Shown: positions 628 to 29,815 of the stretch, one piece after another
Numbering within the stretch: the stretch's first letter is position 1
Layout: every line of letters begins with the position of its first letter
Notes under the pieces: generated by a model
The model's database searches: none
What the model saw: the letters and a program-made list of their open reading frames with translations, nothing else
Told to the model about the DNA's origin: nothing
Made by a program: the position numbers and the translations under genes
IMG/VR virus record: IMGVR_UViG_3300036766_000055
Span: 1-30,700 of that record
From: a virus
Direction: 5' to 3' (one strand)
DNA length: 30,700 nucleotides

Positions 628-839
628 GCGGCTGCTACGTCCGCGTCGGCAAGCTCACCCCGTGGGCCGAGGGGATGCTCTCCCGCGCGGAGGTCATCCT
701 CGTCCGCAAGTCCAAGGTCACGAGCGTCAGCGGCAAGTCGGCCCGTGGGCCGTGGAAGGCCGTGGGGCCGGGTGGGACCTGCGAGGGGCCGCATATCCGT
801 CAGGTCATCAACGCAGCAGCAGGGGAGACACTGGTATGA
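624..839 (+). CDS. Small basic hypothetical protein
   Basis: The 71-residue protein starts at ATG 624 in an ATGA overlap and ends in another ATGA overlap with the ERF gene. It is basic, with a KSKVTSVSGKSARGPWK stretch, and ends IRQVINAAAGETLV. Two Cys residues (positions 4 and about 53) do not form a clear metal site. No domain is recognised. Its direct coupling to the ERF annealing protein suggests a part in DNA metabolism, but that is only position-based. Confidence 0.7.
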   Translation: MSGCYVRVGKLTPWAEGMLSRAEVILVRKSKVTSVSGKSARGPWKAVGPGGTCEGPHIRQVINAAAGETLV

Positions 840-1663
840 GCGACTACGGGCCGCTCGCGGCGGCGCTTGCGAAGGCGCAGGCAGCCTTTCCGCCCATCTC
901 ACGGGACAGGGAAGTCACCGTGCAGATGAAGACCGGCGGATCGTACAAGTTCAAGTACGCGCCGCTTGACTCCCTCCTCTCGGCCGTCCGGGTGCCGCTC
1001 GCGGCCAACGGGCTGGCCATCGTGCAACTGCTCGATGAGGACGTGCTCGTCACGTCCCTCCTCCACGAGAGTGGCGCGATCCTGTCCGGTCGGACACCAA
1101 TCCCGGCCACGGAAGGCGTACAGGCCTATGGCTCCGCGATCACCTACCTCCGGCGATACAGCATCCAGGCATTGCTCGGCATCGCTGCCGAGGAAGACGA
1201 CGACGGCAACCAGGCCGCTGGCAACCGGGCGACATTCTCCGCGCGGCAGCAGGCGACGACGCCCGCCCATGTCTCGATCCCGCAGCCCGCGCAGATCACG
1301 GGCACCGTGTCCTATGGCACCTCGAACCAGTCGGACGGCAACCTCCGCGAGACACCGGACGGCTGGGCGCTCGGCTTCAACCTCACCACCGGACCGAAGG
1401 CGTGGGTACGGGTGCTGGTGGAGGGCGACCTTGCGCTCGCGCTGGCGGGGATGAGCGGGGCGCTCCGCCCCGGCCTCGGGCTCCGCATCCACGGCACGGT
1501 GGAGAAGGTGGAGGATCAGGTGAAGGATCGCGTCGTGCGCTATGAGCGGATCACCGCCGAACGGATCACCGCCGACGAATGGGAGCTCCCCCGGCCACAG
1601 GCACCGTCCGTCGCCCTGTTCGATGAGTCCGAACTGGATGCGGCATTGGAGCGGCTGCCATGA
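836..1663 (+). CDS. erf: ERF-type single-strand DNA annealing protein
   Basis: The 275-residue protein would bind single-stranded DNA and anneal complementary strands in phage recombination. Residues 1-125 fit the ERF superfamily: an N-terminal helix (LAAALAKAQAAFPPISRD), then YKFKYAPLDSLLSAVR and LAANGLAIVQ, and the hallmark YGSAITYLRRYSIQALLGI at 99-117 followed by the acidic AEEDDDGN. After a Gln/Thr/Pro-rich linker (about 131-170), residues 175-255 form a second, beta-rich part (GWALGFNLTTGPKAWVRVLV ... LRIHGTVEKVEDQV) that looks OB-fold-like. The end, LFDESELDAALERLP, is acidic. ATG 836 overlaps the previous stop. Annealing is the family role; the OB reading is my inference. Confidence 0.88.
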   Translation: MSDYGPLAAALAKAQAAFPPISRDREVTVQMKTGGSYKFKYAPLDSLLSAVRVPLAANGLAIVQLLDEDVLVTSLLHESGAILSGRTPIPATEGVQAYGSAITYLRRYSIQALLGIAAEEDDDGNQAAGNRATFSARQQATTPAHVSIPQPAQITGTVSYGTSNQSDGNLRETPDGWALGFNLTTGPKAWVRVLVEGDLALALAGMSGALRPGLGLRIHGTVEKVEDQVKDRVVRYERITAERITADEWELPRPQAPSVALFDESELDAALERLP

Positions 1664-2926: not shown

Positions 2927-3318
2927 AGACGTACAGCCGGGCTGTCTGGGAGGAAGCGCAAGCCGCGTGGGAGGCCGGGGAGTTCTCCGACGAATGGAAG
3001 CAGGTACGCCATGAGGCCGCGATGAAGGGGATGCTGTTCCCGCCGTCCGGGTCGAAGTGGGACTCGTGGGGCGACGACGATCCCTCCGAACGGGCCATGC
3101 TGATCCGGGCGCTCCGGGAGACGCCGAACGTGCTCAACCGGGCCATTCAGGCGCGGTCGTCATGGGCGGGCGTCGTCGCCTACGTCGTGCGGCAGCGGGA
3201 CGATTGGAGCGCCGAGCAGGAACGGATCGCCCGCAGCGAACCCGCCGAGGAATCGCCCGATAGCCGCGAGGCGACCGTCATCCTGAAGCGCGTTCTGGAT
3301 CGGATCGGCAACTCATGA
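2923..3318 (+). CDS. Hypothetical protein linked to replication genes
   Basis: The 131-residue protein starts at GTG 2923 in a GTGA overlap with the previous stop. The sequence is acidic and Trp-rich (VWEEAQAAWEAGEFSDEWK, SKWDSWGDDDPSERA), then helical (LIRALRETPNVLNRAIQ), and ends in a charged tail. It carries no ATP-binding motif, so it is not a helicase loader of the DnaC type. Its place directly behind the probable replication protein suggests a partner in replication, but I cannot name a family. Confidence 0.7.
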   Translation: MKTYSRAVWEEAQAAWEAGEFSDEWKQVRHEAAMKGMLFPPSGSKWDSWGDDDPSERAMLIRALRETPNVLNRAIQARSSWAGVVAYVVRQRDDWSAEQERIARSEPAEESPDSREATVILKRVLDRIGNS

Positions 3319-3329
3319 AGGGGAGACAA

Positions 3330-5522
3330 ATGGACTACGCGACCTTTCTGGCGTCGAAGCGCCTGACCGTTGAAATGCACGGTCCGAAGATTGACCCCGG
3401 AGCGGTGCATCCGCTGCTCTTCCCGTTTCAGCGGGACCTCGTGACGTGGGCCGTTCGCAAGGGTCGGGCGGCGCTGTGCGCTGACACCGGGCTCGGAAAG
3501 ACGCTCATGCAACTCGAATGGGCACGCCTGATCGGGGCGGAGCGAACGCTGATCGTCGCCCCGCTGTCCGTCGCTCGACAGACAGTCCGCGAGGCAGAGA
3601 AGATCGGCCTCCGTGTCCACTACACGCGGGGCGATCTGTTCGATGGTCTCTCGATCACGAACTATGAAATGCTCGAACACTTTGACCCGGCTAGTTATGG
3701 CGCGGTCGTGCTGGATGAGTCGAGCATCCTGAAGGCGCTGGACGGCAAGACGCGGCGGCGGCTAACGGAGATGTTCGCTGTGACGCCATATCGACTCTGT
3801 TGCACGGCCACTCCAGCTCCGAACGACATCTCGGAGATCGGCAATCATTCCGAGTTCCTTGGTGTGCTGGCGCACCACGAAATGCTCTCGGCGTTCTTCG
3901 TCCATGGCTCGCTCGGGGAAGGGGAAAAGGACGGCTGGCGGCTGAAAGGCCATGCCGAGGACGCGTTCTATCGCTGGCTCGCATCCTGGGGGATGGCGAT
4001 CCGCAAGCCGTCCGACCTCGGCTATGCCGATGACGGGTTCGCGCTCCCGCCGCTGACCATTCGCCCGGAGTTCGTGACCGCCGAATACGTCCCGGAGGGG
4101 CAACTGTTCTTCGCCGGTCTGAAAGGCGTCACGGATCGTGCGGCGGTCCGAAGAACGACGCTGGACGATCGCGTGGCCCGCGCCGCCGCGATCGTCAATG
4201 CCTCTACGGATCAGTGGATCGTCTGGCACGGGCTGAACCGGGAGGGGGACGAACTCCTGAAGGCCATTCCCGGAGCGGTGCTGGTCGAGGGATCGCAGTC
4301 ACCAGAGGAAAAGGCGTCGGCGCTGGAAGCGTTTCAGGATGGCGCGTTCCGCGTCTTGCTCACGAAACCCTCCATCGCCGGGTTCGGCATGAACTTCCAG
4401 AACGCGCACCGGATGGCGTTCGTCGGGCTCTCTGACTCGTGGGAGTCGTACTACCAGGCGATCCGTCGATGCTGGCGGTTCGGCCAAGCGCAGCCGGTGG
4501 AGGTCGCGATCGTGCTCTCGGATGCTGAGGCCGCGATCTATGAGAACGTCATGGGCAAGGAACGGGAGGCTCTACGGATGCAAGCACGGCTGATCGAACA
4601 TGTGGCCGCGTTCGAGCGCGACGAACTGACTGGCAAGGAAGACACCTTCATCTACGAAACCGAGACGATCGTGCGGCCTGAGTGGACGATGATGCTCGGG
4701 GATTCCGCCGAGCGTATCCGCGAGATCGCCGACGCCTCGGTGGACCTGTCCGTCTTCTCCCCGCCCTTTCTCAGCCTGTTCACGTACTCGCCCTCCGAGC
4801 GGGACATTGGCAACGCCCGGAACGACGCGGAGTTCTGGACGCATTTCGGCTATCTGATCGATGACCTGTTCCGGGTGACGAAGCCGGGCCGCAACTGCGC
4901 CGTCCACGTCCAGCAAGTCCCGACCACGATGGCACACGACGGCGTGACCGGGATGAAGGACTTTCGAGGCGACACGATCCGAGCGTTCATCGCGCACGGG
5001 TTCGTGTTTCACGGCGAGGTGACGATCGACAAGGATCCGCAGGCGCAGGCGATCAGGACGAAGGCCAAGGGCCTCCTGTTCGTCCAGAAGGCTCGGGACC
5101 GGTCGTGGCTCCGCCCTGCCTTTGCCGATTACATCCTCGTCTTCCGCAAGCCTGGCGAGAACGCCGTCCCGATCCTGAACGATGACGTAAGCAACGACGA
5201 ATGGATCGAATGGGCGCGACCGATCTGGTACGGCATCCGTGAGTCGCGGACGCTCAACGCGGCCGAGGCGCGGGACGAGAAAGATGAACGGCACATCGCG
5301 GCGCTCCAACTCGAGACCGTCCGCCGCTGCATCAAGCTCTGGTCGCAACCGGGCGAACTCGTGCTCGATCCGTTCGCCGGCATCGGCACCACGGGCTATG
5401 TCGCACTCCAGAATGGCCGACGGTTCGTCGGCTGCGAGTTGAAACGGTCCTACTTTGAGGCGGCGTGTCGGAACATCGAACGGGCCTCGAACGTGATCAC
5501 GCTCGGGCTCGACTTGGACTGA
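3330..5522 (+). CDS. SF2/SNF2-like helicase fused to beta-class DNA methyltransferase
   Basis: The fusion protein has 730 residues. ATG 3330 is preferred to ATG 3315 because AAGGGGAG lies just ahead of it. Residues 28-430 are a compact SF2 motor: FPFQRD (31-36), Walker A ADTGLGKT (51-58), motif II LDESS (128-132), motif III TATP (159-162), and the SNF2-style end GFGMNFQNA (351-359) with QAIRRCWRFGQ (376-386). Residues 450-720 are a DNA amino-methyltransferase of permuted (beta) order: catalytic SPPF at 477-480 comes before the SAM-binding DPFAGIGTTG at 680-689. SPPF fits N4-cytosine or N6-adenine transfer. No nuclease domain is visible, so it is not a complete restriction enzyme. All key motifs of both halves look intact. 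Likely roles are self-methylation against host restriction or replication-linked modification; this is inference. Confidence 0.9.
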   Translation: MDYATFLASKRLTVEMHGPKIDPGAVHPLLFPFQRDLVTWAVRKGRAALCADTGLGKTLMQLEWARLIGAERTLIVAPLSVARQTVREAEKIGLRVHYTRGDLFDGLSITNYEMLEHFDPASYGAVVLDESSILKALDGKTRRRLTEMFAVTPYRLCCTATPAPNDISEIGNHSEFLGVLAHHEMLSAFFVHGSLGEGEKDGWRLKGHAEDAFYRWLASWGMAIRKPSDLGYADDGFALPPLTIRPEFVTAEYVPEGQLFFAGLKGVTDRAAVRRTTLDDRVARAAAIVNASTDQWIVWHGLNREGDELLKAIPGAVLVEGSQSPEEKASALEAFQDGAFRVLLTKPSIAGFGMNFQNAHRMAFVGLSDSWESYYQAIRRCWRFGQAQPVEVAIVLSDAEAAIYENVMGKEREALRMQARLIEHVAAFERDELTGKEDTFIYETETIVRPEWTMMLGDSAERIREIADASVDLSVFSPPFLSLFTYSPSERDIGNARNDAEFWTHFGYLIDDLFRVTKPGRNCAVHVQQVPTTMAHDGVTGMKDFRGDTIRAFIAHGFVFHGEVTIDKDPQAQAIRTKAKGLLFVQKARDRSWLRPAFADYILVFRKPGENAVPILNDDVSNDEWIEWARPIWYGIRESRTLNAAEARDEKDERHIAALQLETVRRCIKLWSQPGELVLDPFAGIGTTGYVALQNGRRFVGCELKRSYFEAACRNIERASNVITLGLDLD

Positions 5523-13692: not shown

Positions 13693-16374
<2,682 letters not shown>

Positions 16375-16378
<4 letters not shown>

Positions 16379-17016
16379 ACCCCCGGCTCGGGCTGCGCCT
16401 CCCGACGATGGCCCTTGCCTTGGACCTACTCGCGGAACGCGGCGGGACGAACATCCTCGAAACCGGCTGCGCCCGACAGGTGGACAACTGGGAAGGCGAC
16501 GGCATGAGCACTCTCGTCTTCGGGGAATGGGCGAGCGCACATGGCGGCCATCTCACGACGGTAGACGCCGACCCCGGCAATCTCGCCACCTGCCGGGGTA
16601 TAACGGGTCCGTGGGCCGACTGGATCACGTATGTGCAGGATGACTCCGTGCACTATCTCGGGACCCACACGGGCCGGGTGGACCTGCTCTACCTCGACTC
16701 CTACGATTACCCGCTGATTGACCTGCTCGAACTGGTCGGCGGGTTCGCGGACTTCGCCGGCAACGTCCAGAAACTCCACGCCCTCGGGGACGACTGGATC
16801 GTGGCGAACCACTGGGGCATCATCGCGGACGCGCAAACCCACGCCGAGCGCGAGATGCGGGCGGCGCTGCCGCTGCTCCACGACCGTTCGCTGGTGCTCA
16901 TCGACGATGCCAGCCTGCCCGGTGGCGGGAAGGCGCGACTCGCTCGGAAGGTATTGGCGGATGCAGGCTGGACGTGCCGCCTCGACGCCTATCAGACGCT
17001 CTGGGAGAAGCCATGA
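16375..17016 (+). CDS. Class I SAM methyltransferase-like protein
   Basis: The 213-residue product starts at GTG 16375 (GTGA overlap). Residues 27-35 (ILETGCARQ) look like the SAM-binding Gly loop, followed by LTTVDADPGNLATCRGI (60-76, acidic ribose-binding position) and VDLLYLDSYDYPLIDLLELV (about 102-121), the substrate-side acidic motif. The end VLIDDASLPGGGKARLARKV is a late strand-helix. This is the Rossmann methyltransferase plan, of the type found in glycan and secondary-metabolite clusters. The acceptor is unknown. It is the second methyltransferase in the cassette. Confidence 0.7.
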
Positions 17017-18065
17017 AGGTGCTCGCGGACCACCACCACTCCGACCTCTGGGAAAGCCTCGAGATGCTGTTCACCGACCGCTTCGGGTGGGACCTGTTCC
17101 GGCCCATCGGGATGGAGTGGTTCGATGAGGGGATCTGGAACTTCGAACGCAACCGGACATGGGAGCCCGAGTGGAAGGGCGACGAGGTTGCCAAGCAATA
17201 CCTCACCCCGTACTCCACCGACCGCCAGCTCGCGGACTGGTCCGAGCGCGATGACGACACGCATCCCGGGCGCGTCTACAAGATGGTCACGGTCGAGCAG
17301 GCGCGGGCGATGGGCCTCGACATCATCATCGCCTCGCTCGAGGCGAACGAGGAAGGGCTCGCAGGGCTGGCCCGCGAGGTCGGGGCGAAGTTCGGCATCC
17401 AGTGTGGCAACGAGGGGAGCAACAACCGGTACGACCTCGCGGACTTCGCGATGTTCAGCACGGGCCGGGAGTTCTACCCGACGACCTTCCCGTATATCAC
17501 CTACCGGCAGGAGTTCAGCCTGAAGGACTTCCGGTTCGAGTACCCGCCGACCGAGCCGGACACGATCGCGACATGGGTCCAATGCCTTCCCTCGGGGGAT
17601 GAGGACTGGGAGCGGTTCAAGGAGCTCGCGGTCGCCGTGCCGGAGATGCACTTCTACCACCACGGTCACTGCAACCAGGACTCGGGCTACTGGCGGTCCA
17701 ATGTCAAGACCACCCGCGAGGTCGCGGCGCAGATGCGGGCGGCCCGGATCGGCATCCATTTCAAGCGCTGGTCGGACGGCTACGGGCACGTCATCCACAA
17801 CCTGTTCGCGGTGGGCAAGCCGATCATCGCCACGGCCTACTACTACCGCGACAAGCTGGCCGCCTCGCTGTTCCTCGATGGCGTCAACTCGTGGGACGTG
17901 CAGACGCACTCCAAGGACGAGATCGTCGAGGTCATCCGGCGGCTGCACACCGACGACGACTTCCACCAGCGGGCGTCCGAGGCGTCACGGGACCGGTTCC
18001 ACGAGATCGTCAACTTCGACGCCGAGGCGGACGCCATCCGGGAGATGTTCACGAGGATCCTGTGA
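17013..18065 (+). CDS. Putative glycosyltransferase
   Basis: The 350-residue protein starts at ATG 17013 in an ATGA overlap. It opens MKVLADHHHSDLWESLEMLF, and its middle has GLDIIIASLEANEEGLAGLA and WVQCLPSGDEDWERFKELAV. Near the end, GIHFKRWSDGYGHVIHNLFA and VGKPIIATAYYYRDKLAASL (247-286) resemble the donor-binding half of GT-B enzymes ('G.g..i.ea...G.P.i'), followed by DDDFHQRASEASRDRFHEIV, a typical terminal helix of GT4 proteins. Phage and host clusters hold many such divergent GTs. The assignment comes from the C-terminal half; the N-terminal half is unfamiliar. Confidence 0.6.
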   Translation: MKVLADHHHSDLWESLEMLFTDRFGWDLFRPIGMEWFDEGIWNFERNRTWEPEWKGDEVAKQYLTPYSTDRQLADWSERDDDTHPGRVYKMVTVEQARAMGLDIIIASLEANEEGLAGLAREVGAKFGIQCGNEGSNNRYDLADFAMFSTGREFYPTTFPYITYRQEFSLKDFRFEYPPTEPDTIATWVQCLPSGDEDWERFKELAVAVPEMHFYHHGHCNQDSGYWRSNVKTTREVAAQMRAARIGIHFKRWSDGYGHVIHNLFAVGKPIIATAYYYRDKLAASLFLDGVNSWDVQTHSKDEIVEVIRRLHTDDDFHQRASEASRDRFHEIVNFDAEADAIREMFTRIL

Positions 18066-18142
18066 CCCTACTCGACGTGCCGCCAGGAGATGCGCCGAGC
18101 GACCTCGCTGATAACACCGACCGATACGAGGCCGGTGTATGA
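18062..18142 (+). CDS. 26-codon micro-ORF bridging two glycosyltransferase genes
   Basis: GTG 18062 overlaps the previous stop by four bases and TGA 18140-18142 overlaps ATG 18139 by four bases, so the short frame fits the gap exactly. The product, MTLLDVPPGDAPSDLADNTD and then RYEAGV, is acidic and has no motif. It may be a translational bridge that couples the two neighbours, or a real micropeptide. Confidence 0.45.
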   Translation: MTLLDVPPGDAPSDLADNTDRYEAGV

Positions 18143-19377
18143 CGAAGATTATGTTCTTTGGAGATTTAGCGCCCACGGGGTTCGGGACGGTCACGATGGA
18201 CCTCGGGCGGGCGCTGCTCGACCTCGGCCATGATGTCCGGTTCGTGTCGCAGAATGAGGCCGGCGAACTCCCCGAGCCGTTCGCTTCGCGCACGTTCGTC
18301 GTCAATGACCCGGCCATCGTCGATCCCGACAAGGCGGCCACCTTCGGGGTCGATAGCCTGTCCCTGACCGCGCTCGGGGTGGCCGGGATCATCGACGGGA
18401 CGCTCTGGAAGGACGGCTGGAAGGCCGAGGCTGGGGTCATGCTGGGCGACTTCACCGCCGCGCGAATGCTGGTCCTCGGGGACCCGCGCGCAACGGAAGC
18501 GTTCCGCTCGATCCCGTTCTTCCACTACGTCCCGATCGAGGGGATCGACCTCCCGCCCGGCTGGTGGGACCTGTGGGCGGTCGTGCATCCGGTCGCCATG
18601 AGCGAGTTCGGGGCGGACCAGATCGAGAAGGTCATCCACAAGCGCCCACCCGTCGTCTATCACGGGGTCGATACGACCGCCTTCCGGCCGGTCGAGGACA
18701 AGCGCCTCCGGCTCGGGGAGAAGCAACTCCGCGACAAGGCCGCCTGCAAGAAGTTCTTCGGCGGCGGCGCGCGCGGGCGCTGGCTGTTCCGGGCGGATCG
18801 GAACATGCCCCGCAAGCGCTACGCCTCACTGCTCCGGGCGGTCGCCCCGGTCATGGCCACCCGGCCCGATGTGTTCCTGGTCATCCATTGCCGGGCCTAT
18901 GATCAGGGCGGCAACCTGCACGACCTGATCTCCAAGTACCCCGCGCACATCGCGAAGCGGATCGTCCTGACCGGGCTGGTCGAGGAATACGGCGCGGTCC
19001 CGCGGGACATGCTGATCGCCCTTTACAACACGGCCGACGTGTACGTGTCCACGAGCGCGGAGGGGTTCGGGCTGACCATCGCGGAGGCGATGGCGTGCGG
19101 CGTTCCCGCCGTGGGGATGGCGTATAGTGCCGTACCAGAGGTCATTGGCCCCGGTGGGCTGCTGGCCCCTGTCGGCGGGCTGATCGACAACGAGTACGAT
19201 CACGCATGGGCGGGTGTAGATGAAGCGGCGTTCGGCATGCAGGTAGCCCGGTTGCTCGATGACCCCGCGCTGCGGGCGAGCATGGGCAAGGCGGCCCGCA
19301 AGCACATCGTGGCGTCGTTCTCGTGGGCGACCGCCGCGCGGCAGTTCTCGGACCTGTTCCTGGAGGCGACGGCATGA
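18139..19377 (+). CDS. GT4-family glycosyltransferase
   Basis: The 412-residue protein follows the GT-B plan closely: an N-terminal FFGDLAPTGFGTVTMDLGRA (6-25, GxG acceptor loop), a middle PPVVYHGVDTTAFRPV (170-185), WLFRADRNMPRKRYASLLRA (215-234), and the GT4 signature EGFGLTIAEAMACGVPAVG (308-326) with the E-x7-E pair, then SAVPEVIGPGGLLAPVG. The catalytic and donor site looks intact. The first ten codons are unusually AT-rich (ATGACGAAGATTATGTTC), which can ease initiation. It ends the sugar cassette and overlaps the next structural gene. Confidence 0.87.
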   Translation: MTKIMFFGDLAPTGFGTVTMDLGRALLDLGHDVRFVSQNEAGELPEPFASRTFVVNDPAIVDPDKAATFGVDSLSLTALGVAGIIDGTLWKDGWKAEAGVMLGDFTAARMLVLGDPRATEAFRSIPFFHYVPIEGIDLPPGWWDLWAVVHPVAMSEFGADQIEKVIHKRPPVVYHGVDTTAFRPVEDKRLRLGEKQLRDKAACKKFFGGGARGRWLFRADRNMPRKRYASLLRAVAPVMATRPDVFLVIHCRAYDQGGNLHDLISKYPAHIAKRIVLTGLVEEYGAVPRDMLIALYNTADVYVSTSAEGFGLTIAEAMACGVPAVGMAYSAVPEVIGPGGLLAPVGGLIDNEYDHAWAGVDEAAFGMQVARLLDDPALRASMGKAARKHIVASFSWATAARQFSDLFLEATA

Positions 19378-28152: not shown

Positions 28153-28243
28153 CCGGATGGGGCTGTCGCGCTGCGAGCAACCCGCCGGACATGTGGGGAT
28201 GCATCGCCGCGGCGACGACGCGAAACGGCGGAACCGGCGATGA
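28133..28243 (+). CDS. 36-residue Cys/His micro-protein
   Basis: The small gene runs from ATG 28133, behind AAGGGGAG at 28121-28128, to TGA 28241-28243, overlapping the next ATG 28240. The product [20 protein letters not shown] then [13 protein letters not shown] has C-x8-C-x5-H-x3-H, like the small zinc motifs ('C..P.GH.G.H') seen in phage proteins of high-GC hosts. The gene also overlaps the end of the XRE gene. Strong ribosome site and overlaps support expression; zinc binding is inferred. Confidence 0.65.
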
Positions 28244-29145
28244 CCGAGCGCGTAATCACGAACCGATCGGGGTCGGTGCTCTACATTGCCGAGGGAGCGG
28301 CGGATGTCCGAGCGGCCGTAGAGGCTGCCGTGAAGGCGCGCGCCGACCTCACGGACGCCAACCTCACGCGCGCCGACCTCACGCGCGCCAACCTCATGGG
28401 CGCCGACCTCACGGACGCCAACCTCACGCGCGCCGACCTCACGGACGCCAACCTCACGCGCGCCGACCTCACGGACGCCAACCTCATGGGCGCCGACCTC
28501 ACGGGCGCCAACCTCACGCGCGCCAACCTCACGGGCGCCAACCTCATGGGCGCCAACCTCACGGACGCCTACCTCACGGACGCCAACCTCATGGGCGCCG
28601 ACCTCACGGGCGCCAACCTCACGCGCGCCAACCTCACGGACGCCAACCTCACGCGCGCCGACCTCACGGGCGCCAACCTCATGGGCGCCAACCTCACGGA
28701 CGCCTACCTCACGCGCGCCAACGGCATCAATCCCTATCGGGTCAATCCGCTCCTCATGCTGCGCGACCAGCCGGGCACCATCGTGGCCTACAAACTGGTC
28801 GACGATGCGTACCGCAGCCCGATCCAGACAACAGGCAAGCTGACCTATCACCTCGGCGCGGTCATCAAAGTCCCGAACGCCGACACCGACGAGACGACCC
28901 AGTGTTCCCGGGGGGTCAACCTCGCAACCTTGCCCTGGTGCATGGCGCATTGGAGGCCCGGCTACCGCATCTTGCGCATGAAGTTCACCGCGGCGGACAT
29001 CGCCGCGATACCGATCGGCGACGGCAAGTTCCGCGTGCGTCGCGCAACGGTCCTCGCCGAAGTGGACCTCGTGGTCATCGGGCTCGTCGAGGCCAACCTG
29101 CCGGCGGCGGCTCCCGCGAAGAAGCGCCGGAAGGTGGCTCCCTGA
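28240..29145 (+). CDS. Pentapeptide-repeat protein with DUF5758-like C-terminal domain
   Basis: The 301-residue protein has an N-terminal stretch ([20 protein letters not shown], 14-33), then 25 unbroken pentapeptides of form A(D/N/Y)L(T/M)(D/R/G) at residues 35-159, forming about six coils of a right-handed quadrilateral beta-helix. Residues about 165-285 form a domain ([60 protein letters not shown]) that I match by memory to the DUF5758 domain often attached to phage pentapeptide proteins. The end is basic ([10 protein letters not shown]). Qnr and MfpA pentapeptide proteins mimic DNA to bind gyrase; whether this one does is unknown. Confidence 0.88.
28342..28716 (+). repeat. Tandem 15-base repeat coding the pentapeptides
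   Basis: Twenty-five 15-base units follow the pattern GCC (G/A/T)AC CTC (ACG/ATG) (GAC/CGC/GGC) with almost no synonymous change, although the amino acids vary. Such uniform DNA suggests recent expansion by slippage or recombination and should make repeat number vary between relatives. All three forward frames and some reverse frames lack stops here only because of this unit. Confidence 0.92.
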
Positions 29146-29366
29146 TGGCCCGGGTCGGTGTCTCGCCGTGGGCGCGCGCGGCCATCGGTGACCGCTGGGC
29201 GCTGCTCCGGGAGATCGGATCCCCCGACGACTACGTCTGGATCGGGGCGCGCTCGGTCCGCGGACCCTTCACGGCGTCGTGCGGGATGGCGCGAGCGGTG
29301 GCCCTCGATCCGATCGAGGCGGCGCGGATGGTGGTGGGGCTGGTTGCGGGGCGGGTGCCGGCATGA
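29145..29366 (+). CDS. Small hypothetical protein
   Basis: The 73-residue product starts at ATG 29145, two bases after the previous stop codon begins. It reads [20 protein letters not shown], then REIGSPDDYVWIGARSVRGP and an Ala-rich helix (MARAVALDPIEAARMVVGLV). There is no known domain. The repeated W-x-x-I/G positions suggest a compact fold. It lies between the pentapeptide protein and the RusA-like gene, and its stop overlaps the RusA start. Confidence 0.65.
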   Translation: MARVGVSPWARAAIGDRWALLREIGSPDDYVWIGARSVRGPFTASCGMARAVALDPIEAARMVVGLVAGRVPA

Positions 29367-29815
29367 CCGCCGCGGTTGGCCGCCTCGCCATCGCCGTCCA
29401 CGGGATCCCCGTCCCGCAAGGCTCACTGCGGGCATTCGCCCGGAACGGCCATGCCTGGGCGACCAGCGACAACCCGGCGACCCGCCCCTGGAAGGCAGCC
29501 GTGACCGCCGAGGCGGCACAGGTTGTCGAACGCTCCGGCCTGCCCTGCCCGGCCTTCGGTCGCGAGCCGGTCCGCGTCACCGTGACCTTCCGGCTCCCCC
29601 GTCCCAAGGGCCACTTCGGCGCTCGTGGCCTGCTTCCCTCGGCCCCGACGTTCCCCGCCGCGAAGCCGGACCTCGACAAGCTCGCCCGAGCCGTCCTGGA
29701 CGCCCTCACCGGGATTGTCTGGCGCGACGACGCCCAGGTCGTGGAGCTGGACGTTGCCAAGCGCTACGCCGATGGCGAGCTCGTCACGGTGATCGATGTG
29801 CAGGCCCTCCGATGA
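29363..29815 (+). CDS. rusA: RusA-like Holliday junction resolvase
   Basis: The 150-residue protein would cut four-way DNA junctions by dimeric metal-dependent cleavage. It opens with a beta strand (LAIAVHGIPVPQGSLRAFAR, the 'g.P.pk.R.R' region), then VRVTVTFRLPRPKGHFGARG, and the family hallmark KPDLDKLARAVLDALTGIVW followed by RDDAQVVELDVAKRYA, whose three Asp positions (the two in PDLD and one in RDD) match the catalytic acids of RusA. The lengthy insertion with PKGHFGARGL before the motif is common in phage RusA. ATG 29363 overlaps the previous stop. Confidence 0.9.
   Translation: MTAAVGRLAIAVHGIPVPQGSLRAFARNGHAWATSDNPATRPWKAAVTAEAAQVVERSGLPCPAFGREPVRVTVTFRLPRPKGHFGARGLLPSAPTFPAAKPDLDKLARAVLDALTGIVWRDDAQVVELDVAKRYADGELVTVIDVQALR

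Follow-up and report, generated by a model that had tools for sequence, protein, structure and literature searches.

A predicted SNF2-type motor and N4-cytosine methylase on one chain in a widespread family of phage helicase/methylase proteins

What might a phage gain by carrying, on a single polypeptide, a motor that moves on DNA and an enzyme that methylates it? The question is raised by a gene at positions 3330..5522 (+) of the window, the term used here for the whole stretch of DNA that was analysed, a 30.7-kb (30,700-nt) virus contig (IMG/VR record IMGVR_UViG_3300036766_000055) with recognisable ERF recombinase, small terminase, portal, major capsid, tape measure and RusA genes. The gene, delineated by its open frame, by Pfam and PHROG matches and by full-length relatives, encodes 730 amino acids (aa). 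Both the N-termini of relatives and an upstream ribosome-binding site, AAGGGGAG (3318..3325, +), recognised from its sequence and overlapping the stop of the preceding gene, point to a start at 3330; an alternative in-frame ATG at 3315, upstream of this start, would yield 735 aa. The single 730-residue chain described in an earlier note on this DNA is confirmed as an open frame with a supported start. Relatives share up to 83% identity with the protein over its full length, and such homologues, together with purifying selection, rule out a chance frame of a GC-rich genome. The AlphaFold model of the 730-aa protein has a mean pLDDT of 84.6 and a pTM of 0.76.

The N-terminal half (residues ~30-430; 3417..4619, +) was assigned to the SNF2-type (SF2) motors on the basis of Pfam (PF00271/PF00176) and Foldseek. 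Helicase_C is matched at residues 306-385 (E 3e-9), and SNF2-rel_dom (PF00176; E 1e-5) scores 25.2 bits, just above its cut-off of 24.9, while the structural matches of the motor (Mot1, CSB, Chd1 and Rad54 [1z3i]) are all SNF2 translocases. Motifs I, II, III and VI are all intact, and their conservation was assessed across 144 divergent relatives from which near-copies had been removed. The Walker A motif I, TGLGKT (residues 53-58; 3486..3503, +), has G54, G56 and K57 invariant in 142/142 rows; motif II, LDES (residues 128-131; 3711..3722, +), retains D in 143/144 and E in 144/144 rows; and the A, T and P of motif III, TATP (residues 159-162; 3804..3815, +), are present in every one of the 144 rows, as are Q376, R380, R383 and Q386 of motif VI, QAIRRCWRFGQ (residues 376-386; 4455..4487, +). 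The dN/dS ratio of the motor against the three nearest relatives is 0.10-0.16. SNF2 translocases travel on double-stranded DNA (dsDNA) without strand separation (PMC5512222), and the N-terminal half is most likely an ATPase of this type which tracks along dsDNA rather than unwinding it. The motor is named a helicase by PHROG and by many depositors, and it may unwind DNA.

The C-terminal half harbours a predicted amino-methyltransferase domain (residues 451-717; 4680..5480, +), supported by PF01555 and by the structure of TTHA0409 (TMt 0.82), with N6_N4_Mtase matched at residues 471-712 (E 5e-23). Its catalytic motif IV, SPPF (residues 477-480; 4758..4769, +), is followed by a putative target-recognition region and then by the AdoMet-binding motif I (FxG), DPFAGIG (residues 680-686; 5367..5387, +). 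An arrangement with motif IV first, the target-recognition region next and motif I last is that of the beta class (PMC2890505), to which the methylase is assigned. Conservation of motif IV is close to complete (S in 144/144, P478 in 139/144 and F in 143/144 rows), as is that of motif I (F in 142/143 and G684 in 143/143); the sole recurrent change among the catalytic motifs is SIPF for SPPF, in 5/144 rows. Relatives bearing SIPF are L070, L077, L085, L087, L149 and L254, the last being gp64 of mycobacteriophage Girr. With a dN/dS of 0.12-0.23 against the three nearest relatives, the methylase, like the motor, is under purifying selection. The enzyme of the window is very likely active. Intact motifs rule out a decayed motor or methylase.

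As regards the product of the methylase half, SPPY is the motif of most N4-cytosine enzymes and DPPY that of N6-adenine enzymes (PMC8885841); the SPPF of the window fits an SPP(Y/F) pattern, the published rule being stated for SPPY. By structure, the annotated viral methylases that match best are the cytosine-N4 enzymes of Pandoravirus; pandoravirus genomes contain N4-methylcytosine, and its motifs have been attributed to methylases that these viruses encode (PMC7253447). The domain also aligns with methylases of CfrBI-type plasmid systems. Given the SPPF motif and the Pandoravirus matches, the product is most likely N4-methylcytosine, which stays a prediction because some depositors of distant relatives have written "adenine-specific." No nuclease was matched in the protein in Pfam, PHROGs or NCBIfam, the last of which returned only partial matches far below its curated cut-offs, and profile scans recognised no nuclease gene next to the helicase/methylase gene in the window; a nuclease-bearing restriction enzyme was consequently rejected. 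The helicase/methylase protein alone was also scanned with PADLOC, where the 25 of 53 matches listed comprise type II or orphan methylases and DpdE; nothing in this listing ties the protein to DISARM or BREX. The domain reading of the earlier note, namely a complete SNF2-like motor and a complete beta-class methylase with no nuclease, therefore holds by Pfam, PHROG and motif content.

The earlier note also implied that such a fusion was novel, and proposed a domain search for the full-length architecture. That search bore out the architecture and removed its novelty: PHROG 16 aligns with residues 19-719 (E 2e-62), both halves in one profile. The architecture is widespread, and it has been named both in a published screen and in GenBank, where "DNA helicase/methylase" is already used in Arthrobacter phage and mycobacteriophage records. 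In the phage collection, 502 records match the window protein, 304 of them over at least 80% of it, and the matching phages include those of Mycobacterium, Gordonia, Arthrobacter, Flavobacterium, Pseudomonas and others, plus one Methanosarcinales virus. Species-representative genomes contain at least 471 stretches that code for relatives, and the 80 stretches kept come from many phyla; two of the four isolate regions with listed open reading frames (ORFs) (L115 and L157) look prophage-like by eye, with SSB- or antirepressor-like neighbours. The motor rarely occurs in phages without the methylase, since the motor half alone, at 80% coverage, retrieves 316 phage records as against the 304 with the whole protein, and the pairing of the two is thus near-obligate in phages. 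The window protein is an ordinary member of a large, understudied phage helicase/methylase family, which matters for its size and for the strict conservation of both activities. In the open literature searched, no report was found of a target sequence or role for the family, and apart from the dyad paper and the Girr screen discussed below, the searches turned up no phage helicase-methyltransferase that had been characterised.

Near-obligate pairing does not entail a single chain. The two halves are joined by a variable linker (residues 431-450; 4620..4679, +), which has the top column entropy (3.28) and coincides with the gene boundary in two-gene relatives. Fused genes account for 42 of the best viral loci and pairs of adjacent genes for 37, and the corresponding counts for the genome set are 66 and 12, both sets having been picked by whole-protein similarity and so being biased toward loci with both halves. 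Mapping of the fused or split label onto a FastTree tree of the 144 rows gave 13 changes, 12 of which are forced by starred branches; the two forms have interconverted at least 12 times. In cluster F1 mycobacteriophages the split consists of a short overlap or a same-frame stop codon. Motif reading by eye placed HNH-like genes exactly between the helicase and methylase genes in two relatives (L050:9287-9868 and L057:3904-4583), as if homing elements target the junction. Because the two-gene form is frequent, a single chain is not essential, and mechanical coupling of motor and methylase may be absent.

The putative target-recognition region (residues 567-655; 5028..5294, +), placed by motif order between the catalytic and AdoMet-binding halves, bears on what such an enzyme might be for. 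Across the helicase/methylase family this region tracks the methylase core (Spearman 0.56), and at 60-80% core identity only 10% of pairs show it trailing the core by more than 20 points. In a control family of stand-alone phage methylases the correlation is -0.06 and 64% of such pairs lie more than 20 points below; the comparison rests on this one control family, with regions placed by motif position, a second family having yielded two relatives only and being unusable. Among the nearest relatives of the window protein the region has a dN/dS of 0.09-0.16. Within it, segment 571-600 is rich in basic residues and has a low pLDDT (53-64), as would be expected of a loop which orders on DNA. Because the recognition region evolves coupled to the core, a conserved target is favoured over the chasing of host restriction: the pattern suggests that a single target, or a small number, has been conserved instead of being exchanged often to follow host restriction enzymes, and it speaks against adjustment to the specificity of each host restriction system. 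This evolutionary pattern yields a testable prediction, that the motifs methylated by distant members would be identical or alike, with the methyl group probably on N4 of cytosine.

The setting of the gene is an early recombination, replication and DNA-modification module. Upstream of it lies a gene for an ERF-family single-strand annealing recombinase (830..1663, +; PF04404, E 4e-15; PHROG 2324), an early-module neighbour, and a RusA-like Holliday junction resolvase is encoded near the other end of the window (29363..29815, +; PF05866, E 5e-16; PHROG 140). Neighbours in relatives include RecT, SSB, replication initiation, primase/helicase, DnaB and HNH genes; clustering of the ORFs around the gene mostly grouped its own shadow frames, and neighbour content was also assessed by profile scans covering 149 such ORFs. 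Other DNA-modification genes occur near the family in L115, L254 and other relatives, these being C5-cytosine methylases, PAPS-reductase-like proteins and one Mom.

Elsewhere in the window, the two copies of a 231-nt direct repeat, 94% identical and spaced 30030 nt apart near the contig ends (18-248 and 30048-30278), each encode the first residues of one small protein (MTTDIYGPN...); the gene may have been duplicated, or the contig may be a nearly circular assembly whose overlapping ends differ through strain variation. A sugar/glycan cassette (13693-19377) separates the major capsid gene from the tail genes and encodes an FkbM methyltransferase, a GDP-mannose 4,6-dehydratase, a class I methyltransferase and two glycosyltransferases, possibly for modification of virion or host-surface glycans. 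A pentapeptide-repeat protein is encoded at 28240-29145, with a regular 15-nt repeat array of 26 registers; proteins of this kind can mimic DNA.

The explanation that we find best overall, at a probability of roughly 0.45, is that of an early protein which moves along the phage dsDNA and methylates it during recombination and replication. The protein would be made from a gene beside early recombination genes and would act on the DNA of the phage itself. Its motor, presumably by dsDNA translocation and mechanical coupling, would transport the methylase along DNA that has just been replicated or recombined, or clear proteins off it; target sites would thereby be modified before packaging, probably by N4-cytosine methylation, and the modification may mask the DNA from host nucleases or mark it for the phage machinery. 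What the data establish is the domain make-up, the intact motifs, purifying selection on both halves, the near-obligate pairing and an early-module setting. Protection of phage DNA is a plausible benefit, and the methylase-helicase dyad of phage P1 DarB is a precedent for the pairing of the two activities, although the conserved recognition region speaks against a protein that chases host restriction. A more specific proposal, which we regard as rather unlikely, is that of a motor-driven N4-cytosine methylase with one or a few conserved targets, maintained in some archaeal viruses and in phages whose hosts span many bacterial phyla. Were it true, the enzyme would serve phage replication or recombination, not the matching of host restriction enzymes, and would represent a processive phage DNA-marking system not described before.

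The frequency of the two-gene form, with its repeated interconversion, also lends itself to another account, possible if doubtful, in which two independent enzymes merely share a transcript or chain: a Rad54- or UvsW-like motor for recombination or replication restart would work with ERF/RecT and RusA, and the methylase would act separately. The linker as the most variable segment, the HNH-like genes inserted between the halves, the presence of both ERF and RusA within the window and that of Rad54 among the structural matches are all in keeping with such independence, but near-obligate adjacency and repeated fusion and fission at the same place suggest joint work, or at least joint production. 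It is distinctly improbable that the protein is an epigenetic switch which marks phage or host DNA and thereby controls gene expression or replication timing; its coupled, conserved target-recognition region resembles those of fixed-specificity orphan methylases, and sequence alone does not separate such a switch from protective methylation.

Two further alternatives invoke restriction. The first is a DarB-like counter-defence, in which the protein would protect phage DNA on entry against type I restriction or BREX; its model, P1 DarB, combines an SNF2 motor with a methylase and has a protective effect on DNA in cis (PMC5512222, PMC12707154). DarB, however, places a gamma-class NPP(Y/F) adenine methylase before its motor, whereas the beta-class SPPF enzyme of the window follows its motor and is encoded beside early recombination genes, not among structural genes, which renders this account improbable. 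Highly improbable is the second, in which the protein would be one partner in a restriction-modification system carried by the phage, an HNH protein encoded nearby supplying the nuclease. HNH genes do recur among the neighbours of relatives and adjoin the gene in several, for instance directly upstream in Cheoctovirus phages including Girr, but their presence is patchy, Girr gp63 is listed as a homing enzyme (PMC11075535), and in the window the protein has no nuclease domain and no adjoining HNH gene was recognised.

Among named proteins, Girr gp64 likewise carries an SNF2 motor followed by a beta-class methylase and is collinear with the window protein over its full length (30% identity, E 1e-90), differing in its greater length (839 aa) and in SIPF in place of SPPF in motif IV; its overexpression is mildly cytotoxic to M. 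smegmatis (PMC11075535). Arthrobacter phage Anekin gp77 is a PHROG 16 family member with the same order of motor and methylase, and gp62/gp63 of the cluster F1 phage Bubbles123 share both domains in that order, at ~51% identity over the whole protein, but as two adjacent genes instead of one chain. TTHA0409 (PDB 2zie/2zif/2zig) resembles the methylase half in class and fold (TMt ~0.8, 23% identity), yet stands alone without a motor. In type III restriction-modification an SF2 motor works with a methylase (PMC5512222); unlike such systems, the window protein lacks a nuclease domain. The general pairing is the methylase-helicase dyad described, with P1 DarB as its archetype, in a 2017 paper on polyvalent proteins, in which translocation along injected DNA was proposed to accompany methylation and such motors were reported to be widely coupled to adenine methylases in phages, as one chain or as neighbours (PMC5512222). 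The virion-carried DarB shares with the window protein the association of SNF2 motor and DNA methylase (PMC5512222), and differs in methylase class, active site and domain order, on which grounds DarB membership was rejected; by analogy, the window protein, while not a DarB, may nevertheless work in a related way.
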